Source: Rhodocyclaceae bacterium (GTDB lineage Bacteria; Pseudomonadota; Gammaproteobacteria; Burkholderiales; Rhodocyclaceae). From it: a DNA stretch of 9,865 nucleotides. Location of the stretch: contig DAIEEM010000280.1 in NCBI GenBank assembly GCA_027325905.1, positions 1 through 9,865 of the forward strand, in the 5' to 3' direction. The number at the start of each line of letters is the position of its first letter. Position 1 is the stretch's first letter. Shown in pieces: positions 720-8,970 of the stretch. The translations under genes and the position numbers were made by a program. The notes below the pieces were generated by a model, which worked only from the letters and a program-made list of their open reading frames with translations, ran no database searches and was not told where the DNA came from.

Positions 720-2771
720 TCAGCTCGTCAGCTTGCGGTAGATATCGGCGATCTTCAGCGGCAGCTTGGCGACGTCGGCCAGCACCGTGTAGCCGGCCGG
801 ACCGACCATGTGCTTGAGGTAGTCGGCGCCGTGGCGGTCGATGGTGACGCAGTAGCTGCGCACCCCGGCACGGCGCGCTTCGATCAGCGCCTGGCGCGTG
901 TCCTCGACGCCGTATTGGCCGCGGTATTCGTCGCCAAAATCGTCGGGCCGGCCGTCGGACAGCGTCACCAGCAGCCGGTGCTTCGCCGGTTCCCGCAGCA
1001 AGAGCTGCGTCAGGTGGCGCAGCGGCGGGCCCAGGCGCGTGTAGTCCTTGGCCTCGATGGCGGCGATGCGGCGTTGCACGGCCTCGTCGTAGCGGTCGGC
1101 GAAATCCTTGATGCGGTAGAGTTCGCAGCGCGTGCGCGTCCAGCCCGAGAAGCCCCAGATCGCATAGCGGTCGCCGAGCATCTCCAGCGCCTCGCACAGC
1201 ATCACCAGCGCCTCGCGCTCGGCGTCGTTCACCCAGCCCTTGGTCGAGCCGCTCATGTCCACGAGGAACGCCGCCGCCAGCGACCGCTGGTCGCGGCTGC
1301 GGCGCACGAACAGGCGCTCGTCGGCATCCTCGCCGCCGCGGCGGTCGGCGATGGCGGCGACCAGCGCATCGAGGTCGATCTCACCGCCGTCGGGCTGGCG
1401 CTTGAGAATGCGATCCTCGCTGCGCAGCGCCTCGAAGCGGCGGCGGATCTGGCGGATCGGCAGCGCATAGCGGCGGCGCACCTCGGCGACGTAAGCGGCG
1501 TCTCCCGGCGGCAGGTCGCGCCAGTAGAGGTGGCACCAGCGGCGGCGGTAGGCGCGGCGGCGGTAATCCCATTCGTCATAGACGGCGTCGGCCGCGGTCG
1601 TCGTCGCCGCGGTCGGACCGGCGCCGTCGTGCGCCGTCGGCGTCCAGGCACCGGGACCGGCCGGCGTCATGCATTCCGGCGGAATCTCGCCGAGGTCGTG
1701 GATCAGCGACTGCGCCGCGGCGCGGCCGTCGGGCGGCAGGGCGACGACTTCGCCATCGATGCGCAATTCGCCGGCATCCGCCGCCATGGCGATGTCGATC
1801 GCGGTCTCGCCGCTGCCGGCCTTGCCGAGCGCGGCAACGAGGCCGGCAATCGCGCGGCGCAACACCAGCTTGTCCTGCGCGATGCGCTCGGCGCGCGCCT
1901 GCATGGCGAGTTGCGCGCGCAGCGGGCCGAAGGGCGCGGCGGCCGGCGGCGCACAATCCATCAGGCGCGGCAGCCAGGCGAGGCTGTCGGCGACGCTCGC
2001 CGCCGGCCGCGCCAGCGTCGCCCGCGCCGCATCGAGCTGCGGCGGCAGTTCTGCCAGCAGGTCGGCCAGCGCCGCGCCCAGTCCCGGCAGGTCGCGCGCC
2101 AGGCGCGCCGACAGGCGCAGCGCCTCAAGCAGCGCCAGCCAGGCCGATGCGCGTGCGGGTTCGCCGACGGCGGCCAATGTCTCCTCCAGCCCGGCGCCGA
2201 AGGTGCCGTAGCGCGTCTGCGCCCATAGCAAGGCGGCGAGCGCCTTGTAGCGGCCGACGGCATCCGCTGCGGCGATCTGCGCCGGCAAGTGCAGCGTCGC
2301 CGTGTCCGTCCACGCCCCGTCGCCACCAGCACCGGCGGCGATCTGCAGCGGCCGTCCCGACAGACCCTGGACGAAGTGCGCGAGCCGCGCTTCGATGCCG
2401 TCGAGCCGCAAGGCGGTGCCCGCCCGCGCGCCGGCGCCGATGTCGCGCAGGCTCGCCACCGCCGCGCGCGCGCCCTTGCCGTCGTATTCGTCGAGCGCGG
2501 CGATGACCCAGCGCTCGGCCTGCGGCTGCGCCATCGTCCGCAAGGCCTCGGGCGCGAGCTGGATGACCAGGTAGCCGATCTCGACGTCGGTGCGCGCCGC
2601 CACCTTGCCCCAGTGCAGCGCGAAGTCCTGCTTCGGCCGCGGCAGCAGGACGAGCGCGTCGAGCAGGCGCTCGTAACTGCGGCCGCCGACGATGTCGAGG
2701 TAGAAGATGTCGTCGAGCCGGGATTTCAGCTCGTCGAGGGTCAGGCGCGATGCGGCATCAGAAGACGGCAC
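720..2771 (-). CDS. cbbO: CbbO-type VWA-domain protein, RuBisCO activase partner (CbbO/NorD family)
   Basis: This 683-residue protein is the adaptor partner of the MoxR-type ATPase encoded just upstream. In characterised CbbQO complexes, CbbO recognises RuBisCO while the CbbQ ring supplies the ATP-driven remodelling that frees inhibitor-blocked sites. The N-terminal half is helical and contains the family-like stretch QDFALHW...ARTDVEIGY (about 49-70). A YDEWDYR motif at 398-404 precedes the arginine-rich linker typical of CbbO and NorD. A C-terminal von Willebrand A domain (about 495-683) has an intact metal site, with DMSGST at 505-510 and SDG at 605-607. The [14 protein letters not shown] block and the ending [12 protein letters not shown] match CbbO closely. 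The start is a GTG lying 14 bp inside the end of cbbQ with no clear ribosome binding site, so translational coupling is likely. NorD, the nitric oxide reductase partner, is the main alternative; motif wording favours CbbO. No RuBisCO gene is in the window. Confidence 0.88.
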
Positions 2772-3603
2772 GGATCAGGTCGTCGATGGCCATGGCCATC
2801 TCGGCGTCGTCGCCGAGCGCGCGGGCGATGGCCGCCAGGCAGGCTTCGCGCTCGGCGACGCCGTCCGCGATCAGGTGCCCGGCATGGACCAGCAGGCGCG
2901 TGCTGGCGCCCTCGTTGAGGCCTTGGCCCTTGAGGTTGCGCGTGAGCTCGGCGACGCGCACCAGCCGCTGCGCGACGTCCGCCGCGACGCCGGTTTCGCG
3001 CACGACGATCTCGGCTTCGGCGGCGGCGGACGGGTAGTCGAAGTCGATGGCGACGAAGCGCTGGCGCGTGCTCTGCTTGAGTTCCTTCAGCACGCTCTGG
3101 TAGCCGGGGTTGTAGGAGACGACGAGCATGAAGCCGTCCGCGGCATGCACCAGTTCGCCGCGCTTTTCCACCGGCAGCGCACGCCGCGTGTCGGCGAGCG
3201 GATGGATGACGACGGTGGTGTCCTTGCGCGCCTCGACGATCTCGTCGAGATAGCAGATCGCGCCGGCGCGCACCGCCGCGGTAAGCGGCCCGTCGAGCCA
3301 GGCCGTCTCCTCGCCGACGAGCAGATAGCGGCCGACGAGGTCCGCCGTCGACAAGTCGTCGTGGCAGGCCACCGTCACCAGCGGCCGCGCCAGCTTCCAG
3401 GCCATGTACTCGACGAAGCGCGTCTTGCCGCAGCCGGTCGGGCCTTTCAGCAGCACCGGCAAGCGGCGGCGCCAGGCGGCTTCGAACAACGCCACCTCGC
3501 CGCCGCAAGGACGATAGTAGGGTTCGTCGCCCAGGGTTTCCAGTTGCGGCGCGAGTGCGTGCAACTCCGAAGACAAGCGCGGCTGCGTATTTTCGATCGC
3601 CAT
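2758..3603 (-). CDS. cbbQ: CbbQ-type AAA+ ATPase (MoxR family; CbbQ/NirQ/NorQ group)
   Basis: This 281-residue protein, about the usual length for the family, is a AAA+ ATPase. Members form hexameric rings that with CbbO remodel RuBisCO, or as NorQ help insert metals into nitric oxide reductase. Visible are the Walker A loop GPTGCGKT (54-61), Walker B CYLDE (117-121), the sensor-1 region SYNPGYQS (163-170) and the conserved STRQRF segment (178-183). The lead-in [15 protein letters not shown] (29-43) and the [16 protein letters not shown] block (80-95) are characteristic of the CbbQ/NorQ group. All ATPase residues look intact. The ATG lacks a close ribosome binding site: the nearest GGAGG is 19 bases away. 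The gene follows tpx by 45 bp and overlaps cbbO by 14 bp. The family call is firm; CbbQ rather than NorQ rests on motif wording and the CbbO-like partner. Confidence 0.93.
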
Positions 3604-4464: not shown

Positions 4465-6099
4465 ATGAAAATAGCGGTAAGCGAACTGATCGTCAGGTTC
4501 ATGGAGCGGCTGGGCATCGGCCATGTGTTCGGCATGCCGGGCGCGCATATCCTGCCGGTTTACGACCGCCTGTACGGCTCGCAGATCAAGAGCGTCCTGG
4601 TCAAGCACGAGCAGGGCGCCGCCTTCATGGCCTGCGGCTATGCCCGCGCCGGGAACAGGATCGCCGCCTGCATCACCACCGCCGGTCCCGGCGCCACCAA
4701 TCTCGTTACCGGCATCGCCAACGCCTTCGTCGAGAAGCTGCCGCTGCTCGTCGTCACCGGCGAGACCTCAACCTACATTTTCGGCAAGGGCGGCTTGCAG
4801 GAAAGTTCCGGCGAGGGCGGCGCCATCGACCAGTCCACGCTGTTCGGCGGCATCACCCGCTATCACCGCATCGTCGAGCGCACCGACTATCTCGCCCAGG
4901 TGCTAAAGCAGGCCGCGAAGATCCTGCTGTCCGACAATCCGGGCCCGGTGCTGCTCAGCTTCCCCTACAACGTCCAGAAGGAAATGGTCGACGCCAGCCT
5001 GCTCGACGGCATCCGCTTCGCGCCCGACGCGCAGCCCGTCTGCAACCGCTTCGCGGCCACAGCCGACATGGCCGCCATGGTGCTGGCGGCGCAGCATCCG
5101 GTCATCGTCGCCGGCCACGGCTGCTTCCTGGCCGGCGCGCACGACCTGCTCCAGGCGCTCAGTACCGAAGAGCAGATTCCCGTCGCCACCACGCTGAAGG
5201 CCAAGGGGCTCGTCGACGAAGACTCGCCGCTGGCGCTCGGCTGCCTGGGCATCACCTCCGACGGCAAGGCCTACCGGCACATCGTCGAACACGCCGACCT
5301 GCTGATCTTCCTCGGCGCCGGCTTCAACGAGCGCACCAGCTATCTGTGGGACGCCCGGCTGCTCGGCGGCAAGCGGGTCATCCAGGTGGACATCGACGGC
5401 GAACAACTCGAAAAGGCGTTCGCCGCGGACCTGGCGATCCACGGCGACATCCGCGCCGTGCTGAAAGACCTGCTGCTGCATATCGACGATCGCCGGCGCG
5501 CCGCCGCGGCGACCCCGATTGCACGCGCAGAGGCCGCCCTGCCGCCGCCACACTTCGCCGCGATTTCCTGTTTTCTCGACCGCCTCGTCGCCCGCTTCCC
5601 GGAAGGCACGCAGATCTTCGACGACAACATCATCCTGGCGCAGACCTACCTGAAGGCATCCGCCCGCCATCGCTACTTCCCCAACACCGGGATTTCCGCG
5701 CTCGGCCACGCCATCCCGGCCGCGCTGGGCGCGCGCTGCGCCGTCGCCGCGCCGACGGTGGCGATCCTCGGCGACGGCGGCTTCCAGATGTGCTGCATGG
5801 AACTGATGACGGCCGTCAATTACCGCATTCCGCTCAATGTCGTGATGATCAACAACGGCACGCTCGGCCTGATCCGCAAGAACCAGTTCCAGCTCTACCA
5901 CGAGCGCTACATCGACTGCGATTTCGTCAACCCCGACTACGCGCTGCTGGCGCGATCGTTCGGCATCGCGCACTGGCGCGTCGAGACGTCCGACGACGTG
6001 GACCGCGTCTTCGCGGATGCGGACCTGGCGGGCGGCATCAACCTCATCGAGATCGTCTGGGACAAGAATGTTTTCCCGGCCTACAAGTCCGATCGCTGA
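4465..6099 (+). CDS. Thiamine-diphosphate enzyme of the acetolactate synthase family, probably not biosynthetic AHAS
   Basis: The 544-residue protein has the full three-domain layout of acetolactate synthase-type enzymes. The N-terminal pyrimidine-binding domain (about 1-165) carries the catalytic Glu E49 in KHEQGAAFMACGYARA and the TTAGPGATNLVTGIANA block (71-87). The central domain covers about 190-345. The C-terminal pyrophosphate-binding domain carries GDGGF (436-440) through NN (463-464), which binds Mg and ThDP. The enzyme should therefore decarboxylate a 2-oxo acid and transfer the resulting carbanion. Pocket positions differ from true AHAS: the usual FQE motif reads LQE (111-113) with extra glycine-rich residues after it, PKDVQ reads PYNVQ (167-171), GMHG reads GITS (262-265), and the specificity Trp reads Asn (N473). 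The Arg of GARFDDR is kept (R290). There is no small regulatory subunit nearby. YerE-type enzymes, which add an acetyl branch to a keto-sugar, are a plausible analogy given the setting. The substrate is unknown. Confidence 0.88.
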   Translation: MKIAVSELIVRFMERLGIGHVFGMPGAHILPVYDRLYGSQIKSVLVKHEQGAAFMACGYARAGNRIAACITTAGPGATNLVTGIANAFVEKLPLLVVTGETSTYIFGKGGLQESSGEGGAIDQSTLFGGITRYHRIVERTDYLAQVLKQAAKILLSDNPGPVLLSFPYNVQKEMVDASLLDGIRFAPDAQPVCNRFAATADMAAMVLAAQHPVIVAGHGCFLAGAHDLLQALSTEEQIPVATTLKAKGLVDEDSPLALGCLGITSDGKAYRHIVEHADLLIFLGAGFNERTSYLWDARLLGGKRVIQVDIDGEQLEKAFAADLAIHGDIRAVLKDLLLHIDDRRRAAAATPIARAEAALPPPHFAAISCFLDRLVARFPEGTQIFDDNIILAQTYLKASARHRYFPNTGISALGHAIPAALGARCAVAAPTVAILGDGGFQMCCMELMTAVNYRIPLNVVMINNGTLGLIRKNQFQLYHERYIDCDFVNPDYALLARSFGIAHWRVETSDDVDRVFADADLAGGINLIEIVWDKNVFPAYKSDR

Positions 6100-7669
6100 T
6101 CCGGCCGCGACGAAGCCGCGCCACAATTTCGTCGTCGTCGTTCCCGTGGCCGACCGGCCGCAGCACCTGCGCGCCTGCCTCGACAGCCTGCTCGAACTGC
6201 TGCGCCGCTATCCCTACGACGGGCGCATCGAGGTACTGATCGCCGACGACAGCGACGATCAAAGCTACGTCGCCGACAATGGCGCATTGGCCAAGCGCTA
6301 CACCGAACTCGGGCTGCCCTGCAGCCACTTCGCCCCCGCCGAGCAGATCGACCTCGTGGAATCGCTCGGCGACCGTCACGCGCTGCTCGGCGCCGTCGGC
6401 AACGCCCCGCGCGAGCGCTTCGGCCACAAGGGCCAGGGCGCCATGCGCAACATCGCCTATTTGAAGCTGGCGCGCATGCTCGCCGGCGCCGACGCCGACA
6501 CTCTGATCTGGTCGATCGACAGCGACCAGGAGTTCCGGGTGAAGGTGACGACGGCGCACGGCGACGAGGAAGCGTACTGCGTCGATTTCTTCCATGCGCT
6601 GGATGCCATCTTCGACGGCAGCGACACGCTGGTGCTCACCGGCAAGGTGGTCGGCGATCCGCCGGTGTCGCCGGCCGTGATGACCGGAAATTTCCTCGAC
6701 GACCTGCTCGCCTTCCTCGCCGACGCAGCGACGCGCGACCCGGCCGCGGCGTGCGCGCATCACGACGCGGCTGCGCGCCGCCAGGGCGAGGCGGCTTATC
6801 ACGACATGGCCGACCTGTTCGGTTTCGCGCGCAGCGAGGCCTACGCCTATCGCTGTCCGCTGGCGGGCGAACATGCCGAGGGCGACTGCTTCGCCCACTT
6901 CGCATCGCGCCTTGCCGGCTTCTTCCATGGCGAGCACCCGACCCGCGTTTCCTACTACGTGCCCGACGACGCCGTCGCCTCGGTGCAGCCGGCCCGCACC
7001 GTCTATGCCGGCAATTACGTGTTCCGGCCCGCGGCGCTCGAATATTTTCTTCCCTTCGCCGACCTGCGGCTGCGCATGTCGGGACCGACGCTCGGTCGGC
7101 TGGTGCGTGCGCAGATCGGCCCGCGCTTCGTTTCCGCCAACCTGCCCATGCTGCACCGGCGCACCGTAGGCGGCACCGCGCAAGCGGAGTTCCGTCCCGG
7201 CATCCATGTCGCGGCGCAAAACGTGGACATGGGCGGCGAATTCGAGCGCCAGTTCTACGGCGACGTCATGCTGTTCTCGATCGAGCGTCTGACTGCGCTG
7301 GGCTACCCGCAACAGCCGGTTGCAGACGACGTGCTGGCCGGCATCGTCGATACCGTTCGCACCGAGATGCTGGAAAGGTACAACGCACGGCACGAGTCGA
7401 TCCGAGCCAAGCTCGCGCAAGCCGAGGCGCTTCTGCGCAATCCCGCTCGCTGGTGGAATCAGTCGTCATCCCACGCCGCCGCCGTCGACGACCTCGCCGC
7501 CTTCTGCGGCAACGTCGCGCGCAACTTCGCCGTCGATGCGCCGGCCTGCCTGCGCATCAACTCGCCCGACGGCTGGGCCCAGTGGCGCGCCGGCCTGATC
7601 GGCGCGATCACGCGCTACCCCGCGGAATGCGCGACGTGGCGGCGCGTGCTCGGCGACCCGGCCCGATGA
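6068..7669 (+). CDS. Probable GT-A-fold glycosyltransferase with unrecognised C-terminal half
   Basis: I place the start at the ATG 6068, giving 533 residues. The Rossmann-like strand FVVVVPVADRPQHLRACLDS begins only at residue 21 from here, and a GGGA-like ribosome site precedes it. An ATG at 6017 would add 17 residues of antisense-like sequence. The N-terminal third resembles GT-A nucleotide-sugar transferases: VVVPV...RP (24-31), IEVLIADDSDD (54-64), GHKGQGAMRNIAY (119-131) and the metal-binding DSD at 151-153 in WSIDSDQEF. Farther on are YAGNYVFRPAALEYF (313-327) and a possible metal-site His in MLHRR (361-365). Residues from about 370 to 533 are mostly helical and I do not recognise them. 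No signal peptide or membrane span is seen, so it is probably cytosolic. It overlaps the preceding gene by 32 bp and the next by 4 bp. The donor and acceptor sugars cannot be read from sequence. Confidence 0.72.
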   Translation: MFSRPTSPIADPAATKPRHNFVVVVPVADRPQHLRACLDSLLELLRRYPYDGRIEVLIADDSDDQSYVADNGALAKRYTELGLPCSHFAPAEQIDLVESLGDRHALLGAVGNAPRERFGHKGQGAMRNIAYLKLARMLAGADADTLIWSIDSDQEFRVKVTTAHGDEEAYCVDFFHALDAIFDGSDTLVLTGKVVGDPPVSPAVMTGNFLDDLLAFLADAATRDPAAACAHHDAAARRQGEAAYHDMADLFGFARSEAYAYRCPLAGEHAEGDCFAHFASRLAGFFHGEHPTRVSYYVPDDAVASVQPARTVYAGNYVFRPAALEYFLPFADLRLRMSGPTLGRLVRAQIGPRFVSANLPMLHRRTVGGTAQAEFRPGIHVAAQNVDMGGEFERQFYGDVMLFSIERLTALGYPQQPVADDVLAGIVDTVRTEMLERYNARHESIRAKLAQAEALLRNPARWWNQSSSHAAAVDDLAAFCGNVARNFAVDAPACLRINSPDGWAQWRAGLIGAITRYPAECATWRRVLGDPAR

Positions 7670-8970
7670 TCCTCGACCACCTGCGCCATCGGCTGCATCG
7701 CCGCCGCCGCCCACAGCGCTACGCCCTGCTCGACATGCTGCTGCACGATCAACCGTGCGGCCGCGAGGCTGCGCTGCGCCGGCGCGAAGAAGACCTGCAC
7801 CGCATCGTGCGGTTCGCCGCGGTCAACACCGACTACTACCGCGACCGCTACGCCGAGGCGCGCATCGACGTCGGCGGCGAATGGAATATCGCCGACCTGC
7901 CCCTGCTGCGCAAGGCCGACGTCACGCAATACCTCGATGGCCTGCTGGCGCGCGGCGCCGACCGCAGCCGCGCGAAGATCGGCCATACCGGCGGCTCGAC
8001 CGGCAAGCCGCTGGCGTTCTGGTACGACGAATTCAAGCATGAGTTGATGCTCGCCGGCATGTGCCGCAGCTACATGGGCTCGGGTTGGCGACCGGGCCAG
8101 AAGATCCTCAACTTCTGGGGCGCGCGCCAGGACACGGTGGCGGGCGGCGTCTTCGGCGCCGGCCTGGACGATTTCATCGCCGCGGAAAAGACCATCGCCG
8201 CGCACGAATACACCGCGCGGCAATTGCGCGAGTGGGCCGACGCCGTGCGGGCCTACCGCCCCGTGCTGCTGCAGGGCTATGCCTCGATACTGGCGGAGCT
8301 GGCGCGCTTCGTCGTCGCCCACGGGCTGCCGATGCCGCGCAGCCTGCTGGGCGTCTACTCCACCGCCGAAGTCCTCGACGACGGCCAGCGCGAGATCATG
8401 GAGCGCGCTTTCGGCTGCAAGGTCTTCAACCAGTACGGCAGCCGCGAGATACCGAACATCGCCTGCGAATGCCGGCGCGGCAACATGCACGTGTTCACCG
8501 ACATGGTCTATCTCGAATCGCTGCGCGCAGGCGACGAGGACCGGCTCGTCGTCACCTCGCTGACCAATCGCCTCATGCCCTTCATCCGCTACGACATCGG
8601 CGACTCGGGCCGGCTCGTCGACGGCGACTGCGGCTGCGGCTGGCCCTTCCCGCTGATGGCGATGGGCATGTGCCGGAAGAACGACCTCGTCCGCACGCGC
8701 AGCGGCAAACGCGTGCACCCGGCGTACTTCAACCGCCTGCTCTACGGCCTGACGCAGATCGAGCAGTACCAGTTCGTCCAGGACGAGCCGGGCAGGATCA
8801 TGCTCAACGTCGTGGCGCCGGCGCAGTTGGACGCGGGCACGGCGGCTGCCCTGCGGGACAGCATCCGCCGCGATGTCGACGGGCAAATCGAATTCCAGAT
8901 CAATTACGTCGCCGAGATTCCGCGCAGCGCCGACGGCAAGCACCGCTTCGTCATCAGCCACTGCGTTTGA
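7666..8970 (+). CDS. PaaK/CapK-like adenylate-forming enzyme (acyl-AMP ligase family)
   Basis: The 434-residue protein begins at an ATGA junction where its ATG overlaps the stop codon of the gene before, so it is translationally coupled. It is an adenylate-forming enzyme of the phenylacetate-CoA ligase/CapK type, which activates a carboxylic acid as acyl-AMP. Visible in order are the phosphate loop HTGGSTGKP (107-115), the adenine-site motif NQYGSRE (255-261), FIRYDIGD (306-313) holding the ribose-binding Asp, the hinge segment RKNDLVRTRSGKRVHP (337-352), and a C-terminal SADGKHRF (421-428) with the likely catalytic Lys K425. Cys267, Cys269 and His275, followed by Cys322 and Cys324, match the layout of the zinc site seen in PaaK-like proteins. 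The N-terminal arginine-rich segment (8-18) is unusual. CapK-like members are common in polysaccharide loci, but the acid and the acceptor (CoA, amine or sugar) are unknown here. Confidence 0.85.
   Translation: MILDHLRHRLHRRRRPQRYALLDMLLHDQPCGREAALRRREEDLHRIVRFAAVNTDYYRDRYAEARIDVGGEWNIADLPLLRKADVTQYLDGLLARGADRSRAKIGHTGGSTGKPLAFWYDEFKHELMLAGMCRSYMGSGWRPGQKILNFWGARQDTVAGGVFGAGLDDFIAAEKTIAAHEYTARQLREWADAVRAYRPVLLQGYASILAELARFVVAHGLPMPRSLLGVYSTAEVLDDGQREIMERAFGCKVFNQYGSREIPNIACECRRGNMHVFTDMVYLESLRAGDEDRLVVTSLTNRLMPFIRYDIGDSGRLVDGDCGCGWPFPLMAMGMCRKNDLVRTRSGKRVHPAYFNRLLYGLTQIEQYQFVQDEPGRIMLNVVAPAQLDAGTAAALRDSIRRDVDGQIEFQINYVAEIPRSADGKHRFVISHCV

Follow-up and report, generated by a model that had tools for sequence, protein, structure and literature searches.

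A conserved ThDP enzyme and GT-A-fold protein pair with a changeable third gene in Apr/Dsr-bearing Proteobacteria

What might a carbon-carbon bond-forming enzyme, a glycosyltransferase-like protein and an acid-activating ligase accomplish together? The question is raised by a 9,865-nucleotide stretch of DNA from a Rhodocyclaceae bacterium (assembly GCA_027325905.1, contig DAIEEM010000280.1), hereafter the window, which is the entire contig 194 of a draft genome (1.67 Mb, 59% complete). An earlier reading of this DNA, made from sequence only (hereafter the sequence-only reading), described three genes overlapping by 32 and 4 bp, and proposed that they share a task in making either a glycan with a branched or acylated sugar, a guess prompted by an adjoining capsule-type sugar dehydrogenase gene, or a small glycosylated metabolite. 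The open reading frames (ORFs) and overlaps are exactly as claimed, where ThDP denotes thiamine diphosphate and GT the glycosyltransferase A (GT-A)-fold protein:

4465..6099, plus strand: ThDP-dependent enzyme of an acetohydroxyacid-synthase-like subfamily, core gene 1; 544-aa ORF with PF02776/PF00205/PF02775
6068..7669, plus strand: GT-A-fold protein without a named family, core gene 2; 533 aa from the ATG at 6068 (the longest ORF starts at 6017)
7666..8970, plus strand: PaaK/CapK-like adenylate-forming ligase, the variable third gene; 434-aa ORF, assigned by PDB matches and conserved residues
6068..6099, plus strand: ThDP/GT gene overlap of 32 bp, seen in the sequence and recurring in relatives
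7666..7669, plus strand: GT/ligase overlap of 4 bp, ATGA, seen in the sequence and recurring in relatives

These genes may be best explained as one version, with a ligase in third place, of a conserved and likely biosynthetic cassette found in Apr/Dsr-bearing Proteobacteria. Its ThDP enzyme and GT are predicted to make a glycosylated small molecule, which the third enzyme likely decorates, a reading that we hold with as much doubt as confidence. They are probably not capsule-locus enzymes; rather, the comparisons point to a fixed two-enzyme core whose finishing enzyme can change and which is strongly linked to genes of sulfur oxidation.

A conserved gene pair with a changeable third gene

The GT-like protein has 2187 relatives at E ≤1e-3 among 8000 scored candidates. 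A genome scan with the GT gave 213 loci, the best 80 of which (L014-L093) were kept, a selection that leans towards ligase-type beta-proteobacteria and includes tubeworm and clam symbionts, Thiobacillus, Sulfuricella and Rhodocyclaceae. These 80, L013 and 25 class-wide loci (L124-L148) make up a set of 106 loci. Outside this set are L008-L010 (the same DNA as L014, L015 and L034), L149 (a GT fragment), L150 and L151 (no GT), and the distinct loci L011 and L012, which have the ThDP, GT and ligase genes. The L149 fragment, from genome G184, contains stops and is likely a decaying copy.

Scattered homologues would speak against a joint task; the result was the opposite. In 103/106 loci, a ThDP gene on the strand of the GT gene precedes it by no more than 4 kb, nearly always adjoining it; L136 and L146 have none, L143 has it downstream, and L084, still counted as upstream, shows a gap of 3.4 kb. 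The exact 32-bp overlap with its ATG is found in 45/80 relatives; a ligase match was obtained in 53 relatives (one of these matches being far away), 23 of which show the ATGA overlap. Since both recur in this way, the overlaps reflect more than chance. Among 61 related genomes, the GT is present in 7, and the ThDP subfamily in exactly those 7 (59-100% identity), the best other ThDP match in these relatives reaching 261 bits at about 34% identity, with some shorter partial matches at 37-38%. Wider sampling found a GT match in 29/370 genomes across the class (26 full length, including G000) and in 7/397 across the phylum (3 full length, all of the same class). Plasmids gave no match to the GT. 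Cultured bacteria with the ThDP gene include Sulfuricystis multivorans and Sulfurisoma sediminicola.

The third position varies across loci: a PaaK-like ligase occupies it in 54, a small sulfotransferase-fold protein (ST1) in 20, and a sulfotransferase-like protein encoded on the opposite strand (ST2) in 9. The 25 class-wide loci have ST1 in 13, ST2 in 7, the ligase in 2, none in 2, and a cut locus in 1. These labels cluster on a quick tree without outgroup, which requires 11 changes compared with a shuffled mean of 38.8, and 4 once loci lacking a third gene are set aside. Thus, the ThDP-GT pair is a conserved core that travels together, and the third gene is changeable. The literature searched for a pathway with the window's gene set yielded none, as the sequence-only reading had expected; its insistence on exactly these three genes does not hold, because many loci have sulfotransferase-like genes in place of the ligase or gave no ligase match.

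By fold comparison, ST1 has the fold of sulfotransferases that use 3′-phosphoadenosine-5′-phosphosulfate (PAPS), and matches the small bacterial enzymes curacin ST (4gbm), SgdX2 (8y9p) and Cpz8 (9kf1). It shares this fold with them; unlike these enzymes, it scores only below the cut-off of Pfam Sulfotransfer_3 (PF13469; 2/19 members match, best E 0.0066), and it is absent from the window. Profiles of ST1 and ST2 gave no sulfotransferase match among PDB sequences. In nine loci (L061, L083, L126, L127, L129, L130, L131, L132 and L141), a methyltransferase-like gene of about 208 aa, possibly a further tailoring enzyme, lies on the opposite strand beyond ST1. Genes that we take to encode adenosine 5′-phosphosulfate (APS) kinase and PAPS reductase adjoin the ST1-type operon of L090 (12454-13844), an arrangement that fits PAPS supply.

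Association with sulfur-oxidation genes

The tie to Dsr/Apr sulfur oxidation was overlooked by the sequence-only reading. At E ≤1e-100, aprA (TIGR02061) was found in 31/32 carriers of the cassette compared with 24/109 non-carriers, both samples together: 7/7 versus 10/54 among the 61 relatives (Fisher p 4.5e-5) and 24/25 versus 14/55 in the class sample (p 1.8e-9), the p values here and below ignoring kinship. Above the curated cut-off the corresponding figures are 7/7 versus 8/54 (p 1.5e-5) and 23/25 versus 14/55 (p 1.7e-8); in three genomes, the carrier G272 plus the non-carriers G004 and G005, aprA is seen only as pieces below that cut-off. The gene dsrA was tested in each of the 32 carriers, in the full set of 22 non-carriers having aprA above cut-off and in 26 of the remaining 87 non-carriers; it scored above cut-off in 29/32, 20/22 and 1/26, respectively; among the three exceptional carriers, G294 has a piece at a contig end.

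According to TIGR02061 positions, six carriers have aprA no more than 8 kb from the GT gene, and other genes near the cassette are presumably those of AprB, Sat, Qmo/Hdr, CysC and CysH. The cassette is present in 7 of the 15 relatives having aprA above cut-off. It is typical of some Apr/Dsr-bearing bacteria and needed by not all of them. That such bacteria oxidize sulfur we infer from these genes and, for some, from their names. A conserved CxxCxxCC (YkgJ-like) cysteine-cluster protein is encoded in 18 loci (for example, L022:12756-13703 and L027:12038-12985), and its gene often separates the operon from apr-like genes.

The three enzymes and a proposed route

The ThDP chemistry named in the sequence-only reading is borne out by the domains TPP_enzyme_N, M and C (PF02776, PF00205 and PF02775), all above the Pfam cut-off, which constitute a ThDP decarboxylase-type set. 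Conservation was counted over alignments that include the window and omit truncated rows and those with stops (74 rows for the ThDP enzyme, 49 for the ligase). Like acetohydroxyacid (acetolactate) synthase (AHAS), the cassette enzyme has the three TPP_enzyme domains, the GDG...NN cofactor motif, and residues E49, Q112 and R290, each conserved in 74/74 rows and aligning with AHAS I. Acetolactate-like carboligation is therefore likely. Unlike AHAS, the subfamily occurs only alongside the GT in the 61 relatives, and its score against TIGR00118 (acetolactate synthase large subunit) is 344.7 bits, compared with a cut-off of 538.35. The top PDB sequence match is the ThDP enzyme BbmA (8x3x; E 1.3e-81, residues 4-539), which differs in having W at the position of the invariant R290; the literature searched contained no description of the reaction of BbmA or of the activity of CsmA. 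A glyoxylate-carboligase assignment was rejected, since the score is weaker (244.3 bits) and the enzyme retains E49, a Glu that glyoxylate carboligase is not known to have.

The Pfam scan of the GT protein returned no family above cut-off, glycosyltransferase family 2 (PF00535) reaching 18.1 bits at residues 23-65 compared with a cut-off of 23.3. Searches of NCBIfam, Pfam and PDB sequences likewise gave nothing above any curated cut-off (MftF, 22.4 bits versus 280). Nevertheless, the nucleotide-sugar transferase core proposed earlier is recovered at the level of structure: the predicted model (mean predicted local distance difference test 87, predicted template-modelling score 0.88) matches GT-A structures, and a DSD metal motif is present. 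Many relatives are 575-615 aa long (e.g., P0044 and P0120) and have about 60 extra N-terminal residues ahead of the GT-A domain, which the window protein is without.

As had been proposed, the third protein appears to be an adenylate-forming enzyme of the ANL/PaaK superfamily, judging from its conserved motifs and PDB matches. Its relatives there are PaaK-type (phenylacetate-CoA ligase 9s3l, E 9.7e-21; 4r1l, 3.9e-16; phmmer), and T108-G113, Y257-G258, R260-E261, R308-Y309, G312-D313, C269, C322, C324, C336 and K425 are all conserved in 49/49 rows. Presumably, these include the adenylation motifs and the C-terminal Lys with their usual roles. The key adenylation residues and the four cysteines are kept in common with PaaK/CapK/F390-synthetase-like ligases; unlike those, the cassette ligase sits behind the ThDP-GT pair and scores far below the PaaK, F390 and BagE/FevW cut-offs (54.5 bits versus 646.3 for PaaK phenylacetate-CoA ligase, TIGR02155).

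A possible route would start with the ThDP enzyme decarboxylating pyruvate or another 2-oxo acid and adding the acyl anion to a second 2-oxo acid, which would give an acetolactate-like tertiary alcohol (a hydroxy-keto acid). The GT, through its DSD metal motif, would move a sugar from a nucleotide sugar onto this product. The ligase would then activate an acid as its adenylate and acylate the glycoside, while in other lineages the third enzyme would sulfate the glycoside using PAPS. The tight overlaps would hold the enzymes in equal supply. Among the products suggested by the sequence-only reading, the small glycosylated metabolite fits best, although the GT could instead be a nucleotide-sugar mutase.

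Several points weigh against this account. All three steps of the route are ones that we infer; the ThDP protein scores far below the acetolactate synthase cut-off; and the nearest solved folds of the GT are those of nucleotide-sugar mutases rather than transferases. The Pfam sulfotransferase scores of ST1 and ST2 stay below cut-off, some members having no match at all, and 13 loci have no recognised third gene. As for the sulfur link, dsrA is not found in carrier G000 (59% complete) and gives only weak, sub-threshold partial matches in G050, while carrier G253 has no aprA match. Moreover, 22 genomes with aprA above cut-off do not have the cassette, which is therefore not required for the Apr/Dsr pathway, and the carriers are related to one another, so that the association tests overstate independence.

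Alternative readings, neighbouring genes and significance

Since the closest solved folds to the GT model are the GT75 nucleotide-sugar mutases (MtdL and plant UAM), a mutase step remains a rival: the GT would be a metal-dependent, GT75-like enzyme converting pyranose to furanose, and the cassette would make an unusual activated sugar, branched by the ThDP enzyme and modified by the third. The GT resembles these NDP-pyranose mutases in having an N-terminal GT-A fold with a DXD motif and a C-terminal helical part; it differs in length (533 aa versus about 370) and in giving no match to PF03214 (GT75/RGP) in Pfam scans, a family likewise found in 0/199 genomes of a sample including G000. Foldseek TM-scores to MtdL are low (0.36-0.40, normalised by query) and transferases follow close behind (1.1e-4). 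The comparison is one of folds, from which counterparts of the MtdL base D260 and of its required Arg nucleophile, R159, were not located; nor was a furanosyltransferase recognised among the recurring neighbours. We regard the mutase as a rather improbable alternative.

The remaining two alternatives arise from genes flanking the operon in the window, where no RNA families or tRNAs were found:

9864-8995, minus strand: nucleotide-sugar dehydrogenase, PF00984 and PF03720 above cut-off; gene cut by the window end
720-3603, divergent from the operon: CbbO-type VWA protein and CbbQ (Rubisco activase pair)
33-626: CBS-domain protein

Tpx, like CbbQ and the CbbO-type protein, is encoded upstream and divergently. 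The sugar dehydrogenase noted earlier is confirmed by its domains, although it lies on the opposite strand, downstream of and convergent with the ligase gene. Neighbours were counted around 112 loci, which include three genomes twice (109 after removing repeats) and leave aside the full-length phylum-wide match G594. Genes for CbbQ/CbbO and for CBS-domain and CxxCxxCC proteins turn up repeatedly in the vicinity of some loci, and a relative of the window's CBS-domain protein lies upstream of the ThDP gene in the Thiobacillus-type loci L050, L056, L065 and L079.

The adjoining dehydrogenase invites the idea of a capsule or lipopolysaccharide (LPS) sugar, branched or acylated, which the operon would make with a YerE-like ThDP enzyme. 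Enzymes of this kind produce branched LPS sugars (PMC12247030), and the contig ends within the dehydrogenase gene, so that the sequence beyond falls outside the window. However, a nucleotide-sugar dehydrogenase lies near 9/112 loci (7/109 without repeats); the 127 neighbours fall into 149 families, the 25 commonest of which include no capsule, flippase, polymerase, export or other glycosyltransferase family; and a dehydratase making the keto-sugar that the YerE route needs was not recognised among recurring neighbours. G003, a close relative, has this dehydrogenase too (88% identical), and there aprA, rather than a capsule locus, comes about 1.6 kb after it. The neighbours thus make the capsule link suggested by the sequence-only reading unlikely, and we consider it decidedly so. 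Less probable still, in our opinion, is a service to carbon fixation, in which the cassette would make or remove a metabolite acting with the Rubisco activase CbbQ/CbbO. CbbO lies near 13/112 and CbbQ near 12/112 loci (11 distinct each), upstream and divergent in Rhodocyclaceae, and directly downstream of the GT and convergent in L037 and L063 (CbbO) and L027 (a CbbQ piece); RuBisCO is present in 7/7 carriers compared with 23/54 non-carriers of the 61 relatives. On the other hand, CbbQ/CbbO were not seen near most loci, the 7 carriers tested have RuBisCO on a separate contig or at a distance of over 50 kb, and the tie to aprA is stronger.

Returning to the glycosylated small molecule, a bolder version, which we advance as speculation and think rather unlikely, is that the product is a dedicated molecule of lithotrophic sulfur oxidizers: a glycosylated hydroxy-keto acid with lineage-specific acylation or sulfation (the PAPS being supplied by the sulfur pathway's APS pool), which might serve the reverse Dsr/Apr pathway as carrier, cofactor or storage compound. 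In any case, an unnamed enzyme pair marks part of the Apr/Dsr-bearing Proteobacteria. The cassette offers a GT-A family near the border between mutases and transferases, and a case of one finishing step switched between lineages. If it makes a metabolite of sulfur lithotrophs, an unrecognised part of sulfur-oxidation physiology would become testable in cultured strains.
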